Shown here in pieces: positions 1 to 31,499 of a DNA stretch of 32,380 bases. Numbering within the stretch: the stretch's first letter is position 1; each line of letters opens with the position of its first letter. Under the pieces are notes generated by a model. The model searched no databases. It saw only the letters and a list, made by a program, of their open reading frames with translations, and was not told the origin of the DNA. Origin of the DNA: a bacterium (GTDB taxonomy: Bacteria > Joyebacterota > Joyebacteria > Joyebacterales > Joyebacteraceae); assembly GCA_025774645.1 (NCBI GenBank), contig JALGVN010000002.1, positions 1-32,380 on the forward strand, read 5' to 3'. The position numbers were made by a program, and so were the translations under genes.

Positions 1-350
1 ACCGGGTAGTAGGCGGGGTACATCGAGCCCGACGAGTAGCCACCGAGGACGTCCTCGGTGCCGTCGAACCACACGTGCGGCGTTCCCGCCGCGCCGTACC
101 AGCCGTTTCGCTGGGTCGACTCGGGAATCCCGTATGGCGCGGTGGTGTACCAGCTGATCGGGGCGAACTGCTCGGATCCGAATTCCGTGAGGATGTCTCT
201 CATTCCGCTAACTGCGGAAGGGCAGTACGCTCAGCCAGCCGCCGTGAAGAGCTCACCGAGGACCACGCGGTCCGTGGCGACCGCGCTTCCCGCCACTCCG
301 ATCAGCACGAGAGAGACGAGGAGGATAGCGAAGTAACGAAGGCGCATCAT
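1..350 (-). CDS. Candidate selenoprotein: secreted thioredoxin-fold protein (Omp28/thioredoxin-like), partial at the window edge, with in-frame TGA (Sec40) at 231-233
   Basis: Minus-strand start ATG at 350 with AGGAG upstream. Translation: MMRLRYFAILLVSLVLIGVAGSAVATDRVVLGELFTAAG-[TGA]-AYCPSAVSGMRDILTEFGSEQFAPISWYTTAPYGIPESTQRNGWYGAAGTPHVWFDGTEDVLGGYSSGSMYPAYYP. The signal peptide is followed by a CxxC-type redox site in which TGA replaces the first Cys. The frame stays open for about 77 codons to the window edge and includes a cis-Pro-like GTPHVWFDG. Confidence 0.85.
203..219 (-). promoter_or_regulatory. Candidate bacterial SECIS apical stem-loop
   Basis: Minus strand 5'-TTCCGC AGTTA GCGGAA-3': perfect 6-bp stem, 5-nt loop with G as second loop base. 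The loop starts 18 nt after the TGA. Confidence 0.7.
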
Positions 351-612: not shown

Positions 613-1215
613 CTAGTCCGTGTCCGGAGGATCGGGCGGGGCCGGGGGAGCGGTCTCCGCCGAGTCCTCGGAGACGGCCGGCGCTGCCGGCGGCTCCGGT
701 TCGGCATCCTCGTCCGGCTTCCGGGAGTCCGGGGGCTTCGATGAAGGCTCGGCGTCATCGGCGGGACTCGCATCCGGGACCGTCACCGTCATCCGCATCG
801 TCTTCTCGCCCTCCATCCTGAACTCGACCGGGACCGTGACCGAGACGTTCTCGTCCACGTCGCCTTCTACCGTGAACGTCCACTGACTCGCGGCGTCCAC
901 TGCGGCTTCGTCAAAGGACGGGAAGATCTCCGATCCCTCGATGACCTCGATGCTCCAGACCTCTCCGTCGGGCGTGACGGTGAGCTCCAGGACGACCTCT
1001 CCGCCCGCGTTGGCCTCCCTCGCATCCTCCGGGTACTCGGGACCGGCCATGCTCGTGAGCGTGAGGGTGTAGGTCTTCTCCTCCGTCACTTCCGGCTCCT
1101 CGGTCGCCTCTTCCTTCTGCTCTTCGTCGGCGGTCGCGAGTGTGGTCAGGGGTGAGACGGAGACAGCGACCACACAGACCGCTGCCAGCGCCAGACAGAA
1201 CCAGTGCTTCCTCAT
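613..1215 (-). CDS. Periplasmic TonB C-terminal domain-like protein
   Basis: MRKHWFCLALAAVCVVAVSVSPLTTLATA signal peptide, then a TonB-C-like segment (AGPEYPEDAREANAGGEVVLELTVTPDGEVWSIEVIEGSEIFPSFDEAAVDAASQWTF) and a Pro/Glu-rich tail. Confidence 0.75.
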   Translation of the reverse strand: MRKHWFCLALAAVCVVAVSVSPLTTLATADEEQKEEATEEPEVTEEKTYTLTLTSMAGPEYPEDAREANAGGEVVLELTVTPDGEVWSIEVIEGSEIFPSFDEAAVDAASQWTFTVEGDVDENVSVTVPVEFRMEGEKTMRMTVTVPDASPADDAEPSSKPPDSRKPDEDAEPEPPAAPAVSEDSAETAPPAPPDPPDTD

Positions 1216-1484: not shown

Positions 1485-1889
1485 CTACTTCTTCGAGTCG
1501 TCCTTCGTCTGCCGCTTCTCGTCGTGCTTCTCCGCGAGCGCCTGCTCGATCTCGCGCAGGTCCTCGATCGAGACCTCGTCCATCCGGGCGAGCTGGGCGA
1601 CCAGCGGGGCCGCCGCTCCGTCGAACGCGGTGTCGAGGAACCGCCGGATCTCCTTCCGGAGCATGGCCGACGGCGAGACAACCGAGCGGTAGACCCAGGC
1701 CTTCCCGTCCTTGCGAAGGCGCTCGATGGCGCCCTTCTCCTCGAGCCGCTCCACGATCTTCCTGACCGTCGAGTAGCTGGGCGGGTCTGCGAGGTCCCCG
1801 TGTATCTCTCTGACCGTCGCCTCGCGGCGGTTCCAGAGCTTCCTGAGGCACTGGAGCTCGAAGCGAGAGAGGTTGGGGAGCGTTCCCAT
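1485..1889 (-). CDS. BlaI/MecI/CopY family transcriptional regulator
   Basis: [72 protein letters not shown]: typical Penicillinase_R winged helix. Confidence 0.88.
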
Positions 1890-1926
1890 GGCTGCTCCTT
1901 GGGGGCGAAGAGGTCCGGTGACATCG

Positions 1927-1962
1927 GTGACAACTGTCACACATAGTGTGCGACGAATGTCG
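1927..1962 (-). promoter_or_regulatory. Putative BlaI operator: three consecutive dyads
   Basis: GTGACA-AC-TGTCAC (1927-1940), CACAC-ATA-GTGTG (1938-1950) and CGAC-GAAT-GTCG (1951-1962), located 38 bp upstream of the blaI ATG. The first contains the ACA-N2-TGT core typical of BlaI/CopY operators. Confidence 0.6.
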
Positions 1963-2205
1963 CGGGAAGTCAAGCGCTCTCTCCGACGGGCGGATGGGGA
2001 CGCCGGGGGCCCGCAGGAGGCCGGAGGGCGCCCGGGGCGTCAACCCGGGGGTCCGGGGAAACCCGGCGCGGGGGGCGGCAGCTTGCTGTATACTACCCCC
2101 GAATCGGCGCCCCGACGGCCGCATCTGAACGGGAGTCGATGCCGCGAAACCTCTCTCCATGAGACCCGGCCCGCCAGTGGAGGCCTTCCACACGGAGGCG
2201 CGACG

Positions 2206-3984
2206 ATGGCACGTTTCCGCTGCACCGTCTGCAACTGGATCTACGACGAGGCCGTCGAGGGGAGACCCTTTGCGGACGTCCCCGACGACTGGACCTGCCC
2301 CCAGTGCGGCGCGCCCAAGTCGGCCTTCGTCCCGGAGGGGCTGGTCCAGGGCGACGCCGACATCGAGACCAACGTCGCCGACAAGATCGTCGAGCAGCTC
2401 GTCGAGCTCGGCGTCGAGTGCGCCTTCGGCATCCCCGGCGACTCGAACCTCCCGCTCGTCGACGCGATCCGTCGGAACGGCCGGATCCGATTCGTCCTCA
2501 CACGTCACGAGGAGACGGCCGCCTTCATGGCGTCGGCCTACGGGAAGATCACCGACCGGATGGGCGTCTGCATCTCTATCGCCGGGCCCGGCGCCACGAA
2601 CCTCGTGACCGGCCTCATGGACGCGGAGGCCGACCGGGCTCCCGTCCTGGCGCTCGTCGGCCAGGTCGCGGAAGTCTACCTCGGGAGCGAGGCGTTTCAG
2701 GAGATCGACCAGCTCGAGCTCTTCCATCCGTTCACCGAGTACTCCGAGGCCGTTGCGCGGCCCAACCAGGCGCTCCGCCTCGTGCTGAACGCGGCGAAGT
2801 ACGCGTACCGGCTGCCCGGCGTGGCGGTTCTCTCGACGCCGACCGACGTCCTCGTCGACAAGCTGGACGAGAAGGTGCGCGATCCGCGGAAGAGGCTCTT
2901 CCGCGCCGTCGCGTGTCCGAGCGACGCGTCGCTCGACGCCGCCGCGCGGCTCATCGACGAGCACGCGAAGATCGCGATCCTCGCCGGCTGGGGCACGAGA
3001 CATCACGGCGATCTCCTGGTCGCGCTCGCCGAGAAGCTCAAGTGTCCGATCGCGACGACGTCGCGGGCGAAGGGCACCGTGCACGAATCCCACCGCCGCG
3101 CCGTCGGCGTCCTGGGCTCGATCGGCTCGAGGCACGCCGCGCTGGCGCTTCAGGACTGCGAGCTCGTCATCGTGATCGGGACAGGCTTCCGTCACGCGAA
3201 CCTCATTCCCTCCGGTACGAAGATCCTCCAGATCGACGTCGACCCGACGAGGATCGGGCGGACGTTCAGCATCGACGTCGGTGTCGTCGGGGACGCGGGC
3301 GCGGCGCTCGAGGGCGTTCTCGAGCGCGTCGGCGAGAAGGAAGAGGACGCGTCGACCTGGAAGAGGATCGGCGAGCTCAGGGCCGAGGAGCGCGCGGAGT
3401 TCAAGGCGGAGGGGACCGACCTCTCGCGCCCGGTCCACCCGGGCTTCGTCATCCAGGCCATGAAGCGGAACGTCGCGACGGACGCCATCATCACGGTCGA
3501 CGTCGGCGACCACACGTACTGGTTCTACAAGAAGTTCGTCTGCGAGGGGCAGCGGACGTTCCTCTCGGCGAACATCGCGAGCATGGGGTTCGGGCTCCCG
3601 GCCGCGCTCGCCGCCCAGATGGCCTACCCCGACCGGCAGGTCGTCTGCCTCGCGGGCGACGGGGGGTTCGGGATGCTCATGGCCGACTTCACGACGGCCG
3701 TGCGCGAGGAGCTTCCGATCACCATCATCGTGATGAACGACGAGCGCCTGAAGAACATCAAGAAGGAGATGAACCGGGACGGCTACCCCGAGTTCGGCAT
3801 CAGTTTCCCGAACCCGGACTTCGCCGAGTTTGCGAGGAGCGCGGGAGGAGAGGGGTTCCGCGTCGAGGATCCCGCCGAGCTCGACGCGGCGCTCGCGAAG
3901 GCGCTGGCATCGAAGAAGCCCGCGCTCCTGGACGTCATCGTCGACCGGGAGAAGATGGCCGCGTCGGCGAAGCGGATCGACTGA
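2206..3984 (+). CDS. Rubredoxin domain fused to ThDP-dependent enzyme (pyruvate oxidase/acetolactate synthase-like)
   Basis: N-terminal rubredoxin [38 protein letters not shown], then ThDP enzyme motifs [36 protein letters not shown], and the ThDP-binding [46 protein letters not shown] upstream. Confidence 0.9.
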
Positions 3985-25828: not shown

Positions 25829-27361
25829 GTGAGCCACATGGAGCCAGAAGCTGGTGCGAGGCTCGCTCTGTCGGACCTCGACATCGATTGCCACGTCGTC
25901 CGCCTGATCCCCCGGGAGATGGCGAGGCGGTTCTGCCTCGTCGCGGTCGGCAGGGAGGAGGACACCCTCCTCGTTGCGATGAGCGATCCGTACGACGTCA
26001 TCGCGACCGATACCGTGACGGCCAACACGGGCTACGAGATCAAGCCGGCCGCCGCAGACCCCGAGGAGATCGTCGCGATCATCGAGCAGTACTACGGCGA
26101 GGAGATCGACATCGAGGAGAGCATCCAGAGCATCCTCGACGTCGAGGTCGAGGGCGACGGACGCGCCGAGGCGGACACCGAGCAGCTTTCGATCGAGCCG
26201 AACGACGCGCCCGTCATCCGGCTCGTGAACCTCATCATGCTCCAGGCGATCGAGGAAGGCGCGAGCGACATCCACATCGAGCCGCGTGAGAAGGGCCTGG
26301 CCGTGAGGATCAGAGTCGACGGTCGACTCAGGGAGATCCTCCCTCCGCCGAAGCGGATGCAGTGGGCGATCACCTCCAGGATCAAGATCCTCTCCGGCCT
26401 CAACATCGCGGAGCGGCGGCTTCCCCAGGACGGAAGCTGCAGGGTGCGAATCATGTCCAAGGTCGTCGACATCCGCGTCTCGGTCATCCCGACGATCTAC
26501 GGCGAGAAGGTCGTCATGCGTCTTCTCGACAAGACGAACCTCATGACCGAGTTCGCGGACCTCGGTTTCGACGACCGTTCCCTCTCGATCATCCAGGCGG
26601 CGATCACGGAGCCGCACGGCATGGTGCTCCTCACAGGGCCCACGGGGAGCGGGAAAACGACGACGCTCTACTCGGCGCTGACGTTCATCAACACGCCGGA
26701 CAAGAACATCATGACGGTCGAGGATCCCGTGGAGTACGAGCTGGCCGGGATCAACCAGGTGCGCGCGAGGCCGGACATCGGGCTGGACTTCGCGGCTGCG
26801 CTCCGGTCGTTCCTGCGACAGGACCCGGACGTGATCCTCGTCGGCGAGATCCGCGACCTCGAGACCGCGTCGATCGGGATCAAGGCGGCACAGACGGGAC
26901 ACCTCGTCTTCAGCACGCTGCACACGAACGACGCCACGTCGACGATCGACCGGCTCCTGAACATGGGGGTCGAGCCGTACCTTCTCTGCGCCTCTCTCAA
27001 CCTCGCCATCGCGCAGCGCCTCGTTCGGAAGATCTGCGAGAACTGCCGCGAGCCGTACCAGCCGACCCAGGGGCTGATCGACCGGTTCCACGAGTGGCTG
27101 CCCGACGCCGGCGAGGTGACCTTCTACCACGGCAAGGGTTGCTCGGATTGCGGGCAGACAGGCTACCGGGGGAGGATGGCGATCTACGAGATCTTCCCGA
27201 TCACGCGCGCAGTGAAGGACCTGGTGCTCAGCGGCACGGTGGGACCGGGGATCAGGGACCAGGCGATTGCCGACGGCATGAGGCCGCTTGCTCAGAACGG
27301 CATGGAGAAGGTACGTATCGGGCTCACGACGATAGACGAAGTGCTCAGCGTCGCGGCGTAG
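25829..27361 (+). CDS. pilB: Type IV pilus assembly ATPase PilB (GspE family)
   Basis: Walker A GPTGSGKTTTLYSAL; VEDPVEYELAGINQV; LRQDPDVILVGEIRDLETA; tetracysteine CENC...CSDCG. Confidence 0.93.
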   Translation: MSHMEPEAGARLALSDLDIDCHVVRLIPREMARRFCLVAVGREEDTLLVAMSDPYDVIATDTVTANTGYEIKPAAADPEEIVAIIEQYYGEEIDIEESIQSILDVEVEGDGRAEADTEQLSIEPNDAPVIRLVNLIMLQAIEEGASDIHIEPREKGLAVRIRVDGRLREILPPPKRMQWAITSRIKILSGLNIAERRLPQDGSCRVRIMSKVVDIRVSVIPTIYGEKVVMRLLDKTNLMTEFADLGFDDRSLSIIQAAITEPHGMVLLTGPTGSGKTTTLYSALTFINTPDKNIMTVEDPVEYELAGINQVRARPDIGLDFAAALRSFLRQDPDVILVGEIRDLETASIGIKAAQTGHLVFSTLHTNDATSTIDRLLNMGVEPYLLCASLNLAIAQRLVRKICENCREPYQPTQGLIDRFHEWLPDAGEVTFYHGKGCSDCGQTGYRGRMAIYEIFPITRAVKDLVLSGTVGPGIRDQAIADGMRPLAQNGMEKVRIGLTTIDEVLSVAA

Positions 27362-27396
27362 GGTCGCCGGGGCGGGGCGGACGACTGGAGCGAATT

Positions 27397-28491
27397 ATGA
27401 CGCCGGAAATCAAGAAGCTGTTGGACGAGATGGTCGAGCGGAGGGCCTCTGACCTCCACATCACGGCCGGTGTGCCCCCGCAGTACCGGATCGACGGAAC
27501 TTTGGTCGCGACCGACCACCCGCCGCTCGATCCCGTGACGAGCCGCGAGTACTCGTACGCGATCCTCGACGAGCGGCGGATCGCGAAGTTCGAGGCCGAG
27601 AAGGGCCTGGACACGTCATTCAGTGTGGAAGGGTTGGGCCGGTTCAGGGTGAACGTCTTCCTCCAGCGGGGCAGTGTCTCCGCGGCGATCAGACATCTGC
27701 CGTGGGAGATCCCGTCCATGGAGGAGCTCGGGGTGCCGCTCATCATGCGCGACTTCTGCGAGAAGCTCTCCGGTCTCGTCCTCGTCAGCGGGCCCACGGG
27801 CTCCGGGAAGTCGACGACCCTCGCCTCGATGATCGACTACATCAACACGACGCACAACGTGCACATCCTCGCGATCGAGGACCCGATCGAGTACCTCCAC
27901 ACCCACAAATTCTCGCTCGTGAACCAGCGCGAGATCGGCAGGGACGCGACGTCGTTCCCAGACGCCGTCCGCCAGGTTCTCAGGCAGGACCCGGACGTCA
28001 TCTGCATCGGCGAGATCCGCGACCTCGAGAGCGTCCGCACGGCGCTGACGCTCGCGGAGACCGGGCACCTCGTGCTCTCGACCGTCCACACGAACGACGC
28101 GCCCCAGGCGATCAGCCGAATCATCGACATCTTCCCGCCGCACGAGCAGCAGGGCGTGAGGACCCAGTTGTCGATGTGTCTTCAGGGCGTGCTCGTCCAG
28201 AAGCTTCTTCCGGAAGCGTGTGGAGTAGGCCGGTGTCTTGCTACAGAGCTGATGGTGGCGACCTCGGCCGTCCGGAACCTGATCAGGGAGAACAACCTGC
28301 AGCAGCTCCGGTCGTCCATCGAGACCGGTGCAAAGGACGGTATGCACAGCCTGAACGCGTCGCTCCTCACACTCGTCGGCGACAACAGGATCACGGCCGA
28401 GCTGGCCATCGTTGTCACGAACGACGTGAAGGGCATCCTTCGCGAACTCGGGCGGAGCAGGCCCGATCTCGCGGTGGGACTGAGGAACTAG
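27397..28491 (+). CDS. pilT: Type IV pilus retraction ATPase PilT
   Basis: LLDEMVERRASDLHITAGVPPQYRIDG; GPTGSGKSTTLASMIDYIN; AIEDPIEYLH; LRQDPDVICIGEIRDLESV. Confidence 0.93.
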   Translation: MTPEIKKLLDEMVERRASDLHITAGVPPQYRIDGTLVATDHPPLDPVTSREYSYAILDERRIAKFEAEKGLDTSFSVEGLGRFRVNVFLQRGSVSAAIRHLPWEIPSMEELGVPLIMRDFCEKLSGLVLVSGPTGSGKSTTLASMIDYINTTHNVHILAIEDPIEYLHTHKFSLVNQREIGRDATSFPDAVRQVLRQDPDVICIGEIRDLESVRTALTLAETGHLVLSTVHTNDAPQAISRIIDIFPPHEQQGVRTQLSMCLQGVLVQKLLPEACGVGRCLATELMVATSAVRNLIRENNLQQLRSSIETGAKDGMHSLNASLLTLVGDNRITAELAIVVTNDVKGILRELGRSRPDLAVGLRN

Positions 28492-28525
28492 ACGGAACCG
28501 ACCCGACACCAAGAGGACACGGAAC

Positions 28526-29731
28526 ATGCCCGACTTCGTATACACGGCAAAGTCACCCAGCGGCAAGACGGTCAGCGGCGCCCGGTTCGCGGACACCGAG
28601 ATCAGTCTCGTCTCGCTCCTCCGGAAGGAGAACCTGGTCGTCCTGTCCGTGACCCCGGCCGCGGCCGCGGGCAAGCCCTCGCGCGCCTCGCGCGGCAAGG
28701 TCAAGGTCAGGGATCTGGCGATCCTCTGCCGGCAGCTCGCGACGATGCTCGACGCGGGGCTGCCTGTCCTCGAGTCGCTCGACGGCATCGGCGACCAGAT
28801 CGAGAACGAGACCCTGGGCCACGTTCTCACGCAGGTCACTTCCGACATCGAGGCCGGCTCGACGTTCTCGCAGGCCCTCGGGAAGCACGACAGGGTTTTC
28901 TCGATGCTCTTCGTCTCGATGGTGAGGGCGGGCGAGGAGTCCGGCGCTCTGCCGAAGGTCCTCGCGCGGCTGGCCGACTACCTCGAGGCGAGGGACGCCC
29001 TCGCGAGGAAGATCCGGGCGGCGGCCGCCTATCCCCTGTTCATCGCCGGCTTCTTCATCGTCGCCGTTGCGGGGATCATGCTCTTCCTCATCCCGCAGTT
29101 CGAGAGCATCTTCGAGAGCTTCGCGCTCGATCTGCCGACGCTGACCAAGGTCCTGATCATGATCTCGCGGTTCGTCGGAAGGAACCTCGTGTACGAGGTC
29201 ATCCTCATCGCAGGCGGCTCGTACGCGTTCTGGAAGTGGAAGGACACTCCCGGCGGCAGGCGGAAGCTCGACCAGATCCTCCTGAGGCTCCCGCTCTTCG
29301 GCAAGCTCATCCTCAAGGCCGCGGTCGCGCGGTTCTCGAGGACCCTCGGAACGCTCCTTGAGAACGGCGTGACGGTCATCGCGGCTCTCGAGATCGTCGG
29401 AGAGACGTCCGGGAACGACATCATCAAGGAAGAGGTCGAGAAGGTGAGCAACGGTGTGATCAACGGGTCGACGATCTCAGAGAAACTCGCGGAGTCCCCG
29501 GTCTTTCCCAAGATGGTCGTGAGCATGGTCGCGGCCGGAGAGGGATCAGGGAACCTGCCTCAGATGCTCAACAAGGTGTCCGAGTTCTACACGCGTGAGG
29601 TCGACTCCGCAATCAGCGGGCTGACGTCGATGATCGAGCCCGCGCTGATCGTGGGACTCGGCGCCATTGTGACGGTTGTTGTTCTTGCGATCTACCTGCC
29701 CATCTTCCAGATGGCGACAGGGATACAGTAG
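28526..29731 (+). CDS. pilC: Type IV pilus inner-membrane protein PilC (GspF family)
   Basis: LAILCRQLATMLDAGLPVLESL; MVRAGEESGALPKVLARLADYLEARDALARKIRAAAAYPLF; VAAGEGSGNLPQMLNKVSEFY. Confidence 0.92.
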   Translation: MPDFVYTAKSPSGKTVSGARFADTEISLVSLLRKENLVVLSVTPAAAAGKPSRASRGKVKVRDLAILCRQLATMLDAGLPVLESLDGIGDQIENETLGHVLTQVTSDIEAGSTFSQALGKHDRVFSMLFVSMVRAGEESGALPKVLARLADYLEARDALARKIRAAAAYPLFIAGFFIVAVAGIMLFLIPQFESIFESFALDLPTLTKVLIMISRFVGRNLVYEVILIAGGSYAFWKWKDTPGGRRKLDQILLRLPLFGKLILKAAVARFSRTLGTLLENGVTVIAALEIVGETSGNDIIKEEVEKVSNGVINGSTISEKLAESPVFPKMVVSMVAAGEGSGNLPQMLNKVSEFYTREVDSAISGLTSMIEPALIVGLGAIVTVVVLAIYLPIFQMATGIQ

Positions 29732-29778
29732 ATCGCAGGCTAGGGGGAGACATGAGCAAGAGAGGAGGTGGAAAAGAT

Positions 29779-30198
29779 ATGCGCGGGAACAAGGGTTTCA
29801 CGCTCGTCGAGTTGATGATTGTCGTCATCATCGTCGGCATCCTTGCTGCTGTGGCCATTCCGATGTACCAGGGCGCGACTGAGCGTGCCAAGGCGTCGGA
29901 GGCCGTCGCGGCTCTCGGCACGATCCGTGGTGCGATGCGTGTGTACTACGCCGAGCACGGCACGTACGTCAGCGCTAGCTTTACGGACGGAGCCTTGGTC
30001 ACGAACGGCAGTGTTCTGGATGTGAGTGACTTCGATCTGATGGGCCGATACTTCAGCTCTGCATGCTACACGTTCAACGGCGCTCCTACGGCCGCCGCTT
30101 TCAGCATTGAGTGCGACGGTGCAAACAGCGCTGCTCCGAACGCAGGCGAGGTGGCAGGCATCACACGGACGATCAACCAGGACGGCGACATCTCGTAG
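29779..30198 (+). CDS. Type IV pilin 1
   Basis: MRGNKG|FTLVELMIVVIIVGILAAVAIPMYQ prepilin motif; C-terminal disulfide-type loop CYTFNGAPTAAAFSIEC; AGGAGGT RBS. Confidence 0.92.
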   Translation: MRGNKGFTLVELMIVVIIVGILAAVAIPMYQGATERAKASEAVAALGTIRGAMRVYYAEHGTYVSASFTDGALVTNGSVLDVSDFDLMGRYFSSACYTFNGAPTAAAFSIECDGANSAAPNAGEVAGITRTINQDGDIS

Positions 30199-30214
30199 CA
30201 ACGATGACCACACG

Positions 30215-30244
30215 CGGGGGCGGCGCCTCATGGCGCCGTCCCCG
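30215..30244 (+). terminator. Terminator/attenuator between pilin 1 and pilin 2
   Basis: CGGGGGCGGCGCC-tcat-GGCGCCGTCCCCG: 13-bp stem (one G-T), 16 nt after the pilin 1 stop. Confidence 0.6.
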
Positions 30245-30358
30245 ACAGCGCGGAGGCGCGGACCGCAGGACTGCGAAGGTGTTGGTTCGGCTGACCTGAT
30301 GGTGCGCGACTTCACGAAGACGCGCGCAGCCGCGTGAAAGGTGACGGATGGCGCAGGG

Positions 30359-30874
30359 ATGAGGAAGCCTCGAGACATGGACGCGACTCCAGGAGAGAAC
30401 ACCAGGGGCTTCACCGTTGCCGAGCTCATGATTGTACTGGTTGTGATCGGCGTTCTGGCTTCGGTCGCCATTCCTCTCTATCAGGTCGTGCCGGAGAAGT
30501 CGAAGGAGACGGAGGCCATCGCGAAGCTCGTCCTGATTCGCGACGCGATGCTCGCCTACCGTGAGGAGAACGCGACTTTCGGGCACCCGAGCTTCGCGGA
30601 CGGCCGGCCCGTTCCCGCCGAGGGGATCTCGAAGGAGGACGGTCCACGGGCGGAAGGGAGCCTCGGACTCAGCAGCGACGCACTCCTGGGTCGATATTAC
30701 AGCCACGAGTGCTTCTCCTTCGACGGGACGCCGAGCGAGGACGAATTCACGATCGTCTGCGACGGCTCGCGAAGCACGGCGCCGTACGGGAACGAGGTGG
30801 CGAGGCTCGTCTACACGATCGACCGCGAAGGGAGCATCGACGGCGGAGCGCGAGCCGGGCTCGGGAGGCGGTGA
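30359..30874 (+). CDS. Type IV pilin 2 (divergent)
   Basis: ENTRG|FTVAELMIVLVVIGVLASVAIPLYQ; CFSFDGTPSEDEFTIVC loop; longer, variable middle region. Start uncertain (30341 GTG, 30359 or 30377). Confidence 0.85.
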   Translation: MRKPRDMDATPGENTRGFTVAELMIVLVVIGVLASVAIPLYQVVPEKSKETEAIAKLVLIRDAMLAYREENATFGHPSFADGRPVPAEGISKEDGPRAEGSLGLSSDALLGRYYSHECFSFDGTPSEDEFTIVCDGSRSTAPYGNEVARLVYTIDREGSIDGGARAGLGRR

Positions 30875-31064
30875 CTTCAGATGGGAGCGTCGACCGACCC
30901 GGATCGAACGGAGGCCGACCACGAGAGACTGTGAACGCTGTTCTGTGATCGATTGGAAGCAGATCGAAGGGAAGCAGACCGAGAGACCTTCCGCCCGTCG
31001 GGTTCGGCGGGCCGCTCCCGGAGGGGGGAGGAGGAAGGCCGATCGAACACTGGAGGTGGGCGAG

Positions 31065-31499
31065 ATGGGCCTGAAGAACAGGGGAGGCTTCACCCTCGTC
31101 GAGCTCATGATCGTGGTCATCGTCGTCGGCGTGCTCGCCGCCGTCGCGATACCGATGTACCAGGTCATGCCGAAGCGATCGAGGGGGACGGAGGCCGCAG
31201 CAGCGCTCGGGCTCGTTCGAAGCTCGATGCGCATCTACTACGCAGAGCACGGGACCTTCGCCAACGCGAGTTTCACTGACGGGGCTCAGGTGACGACGGG
31301 AGAGATCCTCGGGGTGATCGACTTCGATCTTCTGGGGAAGTACTTCAGCACCGAATGCTACACGTTCGACGGCGCACCAACCGCGAACGGGTACACGATC
31401 GAGTGTGACGGTTCGAACAGCACGTCGGCGGGCGCAGCGGACGTTGCCGACGTCGTGATGACGATCGACGAGATCGGCGAGATCACCAACAACTGGTAG
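31065..31499 (+). CDS. Type IV pilin 3
   Basis: MGLKNRGG|FTLVELMIVVIVVGVLAAVAIPMYQ; CYTFDGAPTANGYTIEC; GGAGGTGG RBS. Confidence 0.92.
   Translation: MGLKNRGGFTLVELMIVVIVVGVLAAVAIPMYQVMPKRSRGTEAAAALGLVRSSMRIYYAEHGTFANASFTDGAQVTTGEILGVIDFDLLGKYFSTECYTFDGAPTANGYTIECDGSNSTSAGAADVADVVMTIDEIGEITNNW

Follow-up and report, generated by a model that had tools for sequence, protein, structure and literature searches.

A UGA codon in a gene at the left end of the window is very probably recoded as selenocysteine (Sec), and the product is best explained as a thiol-disulfide oxidoreductase that would be exported via type IX secretion. 'Window' denotes the whole stretch of DNA analyzed here (32,380 nucleotides), which represents the entire contig C359 of MAG G000, which comprises 2.85 Mb and is 80.6% complete. 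On the minus strand, a reading frame starts with an ATG at position 350, preceded by the Shine-Dalgarno-like sequence GGAAAGGAG (355-364), reaches a TGA at positions 231-233 and then stays open up to base 3 at the contig end. The TGA and the open frame beyond it had been noted in the original prediction and were confirmed by translation. Read conventionally, the TGA is a stop codon that yields a 39-residue product, and an ordinary ORF caller indeed cuts each Sec copy at its TGA, as had been expected. Translation of TGA as U results in 116 codons (1-350, minus strand) that form the 5' part of a gene termed Sec-Omp28 here, with UGA as codon 40. The translation consists of a signal peptide, the segment VVLGELFTAAG-U-AYCPSAVSGM and, further downstream, GTPHVWFDGTEDVLGGYSS. 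The signal peptide (276-350, minus strand) was identified by eye from the translation and is likely cleaved after Ala-Val-Ala (residue 25). The TGA supplies the first residue of the motif U-A-Y-C, whose resolving Cys is encoded by the TGC at 222-224 (minus strand) and is invariant in the N-terminal alignment. The segment GTPHVWFDG (60-86, minus strand) would provide the cis-Pro loop, and its Pro (codon 78-80) is invariant in alignments A3 and A5. Together, these stretches look like the active site and the cis-Pro segment of a thioredoxin fold, in agreement with the first reading of both motifs, and the Pfam matches of the read-through translation, though weak, were of the same kind. Sequence inspection revealed no lipobox and the window protein is therefore not predicted to be a lipoprotein. 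As the full-length protein of the congener G002 contains approximately 615 residues, the window holds less than one fifth of the protein, and all features past residue 116, where the window copy is cut, were taken from congeners.

Homologs were detected in each of the 20 Ca. Effluviviaceae genomes, a family assigned by NCBI to the phylum Candidatus Effluviviacota. In an alignment of 54 family domains, the position of the window's TGA is occupied by TGA in 27 domains, the window included, by TGC in 19 and by TGT in eight, and nothing else was found in this column. Cys homologs, which had been named as the natural check on a selenoprotein reading, thus account for 27 of the 54 domains. The same TGA is kept in two congeners, whose proteins contain 615 and 623 residues. 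The 615-residue protein (P0003 of G002) is 80% identical to the window over 115 residues. None of the family TGA frames contains a further TGA before its natural end, except for L056, where the extracted frame overran that end. Ka/Ks values against G002 were 0.54 before and 0.41 after the TGA (small numbers), indicating that purifying selection is similar on both sides of the codon. The own genome encodes a second Sec gene (L003, positions 757-1776 of G000:C270), which represents a type of 340 residues that shares the UxxC motif and has a sorting tail. Sec was present in nine out of nine copies of this type.

These data bear directly on an interpretation in which the TGA is a real stop codon and the locus a pseudogene or an assembly error that gives rise to a 39-residue peptide or to no product at all. 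The sequence belongs to a MAG contig, the gene is located at the contig end, and one of the window genes upstream of it looks broken, all of which would fit such a reading. Nevertheless, the same TGA is found in two independent congeners, so that it is not an assembly error, and about 60 homologs in all carry a TGA at the same column. The frame lacks a second stop and purifying selection continues past the codon. Decay or mis-assembly was therefore rejected on account of the conserved TGA column and the selection after it, and is considered highly improbable. Even less probable is the decoding of the TGA as a different amino acid by an alternative code or by general read-through. The frame would be open under any code that assigns a residue to TGA, but 11 of the 25 checked ORFs of the window end with TGA. 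As TGA serves as an ordinary stop here, a changed genetic code was rejected. In addition, the column otherwise contains Cys, a tRNA-Sec with a TCA anticodon is present, and TGA copies track the Sec machinery. By sequence, the window gene is a selenoprotein gene, and the selenoprotein reading of the original prediction is supported by the Cys/TGA column, the machinery, the set of hairpins and the continuing selection.

The genes for Sec synthesis and insertion had been suggested as a further check. The own genome contains a tRNA-Sec gene (70.4 bits, anticodon TCA) just downstream of selD on contig C42. Its SelD (369 bits) carries a TGA of its own and would itself contain Sec, and SelA (451.6 bits) is encoded on contig C284. 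Three of the four components, selC, selA and selD, are thus present. No SelB was detected in the window's own MAG, which is 80.6% complete. Both congeners encode a full-length SelB above the cut-off (344-350 bits), and SelB exceeded the cut-off in 12 of the 20 family genomes. At E <= 0.001, the tRNA-Sec model matched 41 of 41 genomes via other tRNAs, and tRNA-Sec was therefore called only at clearly separate scores (E < ~1e-10). Two genomes of family f30 (G195 and G331) have SelB above the cut-off and no tRNA-Sec match; their tRNA-Sec may be missed or divergent. In the proposed mechanism, UGA codon 40 would be recoded as Sec by tRNA-Sec, SelA, SelD and SelB, aided by a hairpin downstream of the codon.

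A candidate for this hairpin is located at positions 203-219 (minus strand). The SECIS-like sequence TTCCGC-AGTTA-GCGGAA places its loop from 17 nucleotides past the TGA, with G as loop position 2. Its fold z-score is -2.15 and codon-preserving shuffles gave p = 0.086, which is marginal for a single copy. To assess the complete set of homologs, the best stem-loop carrying G as its first or second loop base was scored for each TGA or Cys copy, in comparison to synonymous-codon shuffles. The score of the TGA copies was 14.4 versus 10.3 for their shuffled counterparts, while the Cys copies reached 9.4 versus 9.6. The two groups differed with p = 2e-6 (Mann-Whitney test on per-copy p-values) and the contrast was repeated outside the first set (p = 0.003); these hairpin p-values are optimistic because the copies are related. 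The loops AGTT(A), GGTC and CGTGC recur 17-20 nucleotides past the TGA on differing stems. The same stem-loop scan found no hairpin in the Sec copies L090, L170 and L172, and an Rfam scan of the whole window at gathering scores returned no match. The evidence for a SECIS-like hairpin is strong for the set of TGA copies and suggestive for the window copy by itself.

Beyond the family, the N-terminal profile A3 matched in 74 of 366 sampled genomes; a search of the genome contigs with profile A4 returned the own family only. At the Sec/Cys column, 71 further domains (including six of the own family's short type) comprise 35 TGA, 34 Cys, one Ser and one Met. The Ser and Met residues occur in the divergent homologs L147 and L193, which are possibly inactive. 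In another homolog, L165 (G152:C176), the sequence reads NVGCGUAACLNP, which places the TGA two residues past the aligned Cys and still forms a UxxC motif. TGA copies were found in 21 non-family genomes, of which 20 contain tRNA-Sec and the remaining one (G190) SelB (313.8 bits). For comparison, tRNA-Sec was detected in eight of the 15 genomes with Cys copies only; the difference from the Sec genomes gave p = 0.0008 in a Fisher test, although the genomes are not independent of each other. A tree of 119 domains was calculated by a quick method with the Sec/Cys column masked. It requires at least 21 Sec/Cys changes, nine of which are forced by well-supported branches; the count is approximate owing to the quick tree method and many open forks. 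In the window's clade, all ten rows are Sec (support 99). Judged from these sequences, Sec and Cys have been exchanged repeatedly across many paralogs of this branch.

The full-length relatives indicate where the protein may act. In P0003, an Omp28-like region is followed by BACON_2, a weak choice-of-anchor J match and FlgD_ig/Por_Secre_tail. By analogy, the window's product would start with a signal peptide and an Omp28-like thioredoxin domain with a U-x-x-C active site, continue with an Omp28-like beta domain and Ig/BACON-like domains, and end in a C-terminal FlgD/Por-type sorting tail. The sorting-tail model TIGR04183 (cut-off 23) matched P0003, the own-genome paralog L003 and L080 with 37.2, 30.6 and 24.7 bits, respectively. 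It matched 22 of the 23 family proteins in A2, the exception apparently being the cut window copy. The type IX translocon was judged by SprA, which exceeded the cut-off in each of the first six family genomes examined, among them the own genome G000 (477 bits), where it is found with its neighbors. It is also present in 18 of the 21 distant Sec genomes. No SprA was found in G147 and G283, and the Sec proteins of these two genomes end after the Omp28 domain without a tail. A mismatch is G120, which encodes a tailed Sec protein and in which SprA was not found. Because type IX sorting tails and the SprA translocon are present, Sec-Omp28 proteins are probably surface-exposed Sec thioredoxins. The product would cross the inner membrane and then, via the type IX translocon, reach the cell surface or the outside. 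The original prediction of an exported protein, which stood on the signal peptide, can thus be raised to a probable type IX cargo with the help of the congener tails and SprA.

A structural model was obtained with AlphaFold2 for a full-length, 673-residue type-2 relative (mean pLDDT 75.8). The model shows a thioredoxin fold with the order b-a-b-a-b-b-a, in which U39 and C42 are placed at the start of helix 1; the truncated domain of the window copy gave a poor model (pLDDT 57). The best PDB match of the type-2 model was HBP35 of Porphyromonas gingivalis (5y1a), with a modest TM-score of 0.53 by target length, and a sequence-profile match to the same protein was obtained at E = 7e-4. HBP35 is a cell-surface protein whose thioredoxin activity requires two active-site Cys residues (PMC2907840), and its secretion is reported to depend on the Por system (PMC3120885). 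Both proteins combine a thioredoxin domain with a C-terminal export domain. HBP35, however, contains Cys, has approximately 344 residues and binds hemin, whereas Sec-Omp28 proteins contain a predicted Sec and approximately 615-680 residues. By this analogy, Sec-Omp28 proteins are probably the Sec counterpart of HBP35. The Sec-Cys pair would operate as a thiol-disulfide (selenenylsulfide) oxidoreductase in an HBP35-like manner, with Sec replacing the attacking Cys.

A competing view keeps the selenoprotein in the periplasm or at the inner face of the outer membrane and regards the FlgD/Por tail as a structural element instead of a type IX signal. In several paralogs the tail fits FlgD_ig better than Por_Secre_tail, and SprA is the one component of the type IX system on which the comparison is based. 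Against a periplasmic location, the proteins scored with TIGR04183 lie above its cut-off, SprA is present in all of the first family genomes examined, the Sec versions from the two genomes without SprA have no tail, and the best fold match is itself a type IX cargo. A location inside the outer membrane is thus judged unlikely, though it deserves by far the most weight of the alternatives considered. The genes next to Sec-Omp28 raise a different question, namely whether the protein acts as the dedicated reductant of an exported methionine sulfoxide reductase. In G002, the gene immediately upstream of Sec-Omp28 indeed encodes an exported MsrB-MsrA fusion (L052, positions 1080-2003). This is the case in one genome only, as the place is taken by a BlaI/M56 pair in G001 and in the window and by a rubredoxin-ALS-like gene in G012, and a dedicated role in methionine sulfoxide reduction appears quite improbable. 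For the type IX-exported oxidoreductase, the type-2 paralogs may offer the most promising hint at an electron donor. At about 15 loci, a type-2 gene (Sec or Cys; L058-L081) is immediately preceded by a gene for a Cys-type Omp28 lipoprotein. The encoded lipoproteins have a GGC-DWF lipobox and no sorting tail, and we infer that they are candidate donors.

The upstream neighbors in the window are a TonB_C remnant of a BlaR1/M56-type gene (613-1215, minus strand; Pfam PF03544, 61.4 bits) and a BlaI/MecI-type repressor (1485-1886, minus strand; Pfam PF03965, 84.8 bits), for which no action on the Sec gene is claimed. The Sec gene of G001 is likewise preceded by an M56/TonB_C gene and a BlaI-type repressor, and the congener gene that matches the remnant carries M56 and TonB_C. 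In comparison to G001, the M56 gene of the window, located between the repressor and the TonB_C part, is shorter by approximately 700 bp at a GCCCGCGCGCTCGCTC repeat (1336-1348), which leaves a frameshifted remnant; this loss is either a real deletion or a mis-assembly. Two further loci were recognized by eye from translations: a rubredoxin-acetolactate-synthase-like fusion (1873-3984) and a PilB/PilT/PilC-like cluster with, behind it, three pilin-like genes (25829-31499).

The closest described model is NCBIfam NF045500 ('Omp28-related selenoprotein'), which equals GOS_C, a group of 74 Sec sequences with a UxxC motif and a Trx-like fold from a 2008 ocean survey (PMC2398784). NF045500 has the Omp28-like thioredoxin domain and the Sec in UxxC in common with Sec-Omp28, and all A2 members match the model. 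They differ in score, as the window reached 33.4 bits and the full-length congener 60.8 bits compared to a cut-off of 200 bits, which was passed by none of the 366 sampled genomes, the own family included. With scores far below the cut-off, annotation by NF045500 would not name Sec-Omp28 proteins, and because the curated cut-off was not reached, the branch was not filed as a member. A reading as a new family was withdrawn after the NCBIfam scan had revealed the relation to GOS_C/NF045500. The unannotated candidate selenoprotein of the original prediction remains unnamed by the current model and yet belongs next to an already described family. A 2026 selenoprotein catalogue lists 119 families, of which GOS_C is the matching one (PMC13188914, Table 1); other Trx-like selenoproteins of this catalogue share the UxxC redox motif. 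The Omp28 family (PF11551) and the Omp28 lipoprotein model NF033782 have the N-terminal and beta domains in common with Sec-Omp28. The PF11551 gathering score of 34.9 was not reached by P0003 (22.2 bits) or the L003 type (11.5 bits), and the Sec-Omp28 protein differs from Omp28/NF033782 by the missing lipobox and the presence of a sorting tail. A literature text search for selenoproteins together with type IX secretion gave one unrelated paper only, and the genome paper on this seafloor phylum (PMC11323493) is silent on both selenium and type IX secretion.

What is known is thus the general kind of protein, and what is new is the branch, with its many paralogs, its repeated Sec/Cys exchange and its type IX tails in the company of SprA. 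On the basis of sequence comparison, the branch is distinct from and wider than NF045500/GOS_C and of the same kind. This group escapes the current family model, given that 21 non-family sampled genomes contain Sec copies and none scored above the cut-off. Somewhat better than even chances are given to the broader proposal of a large and mostly unannotated family of type IX-placed Sec thioredoxins in many bacterial families, with repeated gain and loss of Sec and, in some members, an adjoining Cys-type lipoprotein partner. Sec is usually viewed as a catalyst within the cell or the periplasm. If the proposal is true, it would represent a Sec-based redox system beyond the outer membrane, and with these proteins sorted to the surface, anaerobic sediment bacteria would have selenium chemistry on the far side of that membrane.
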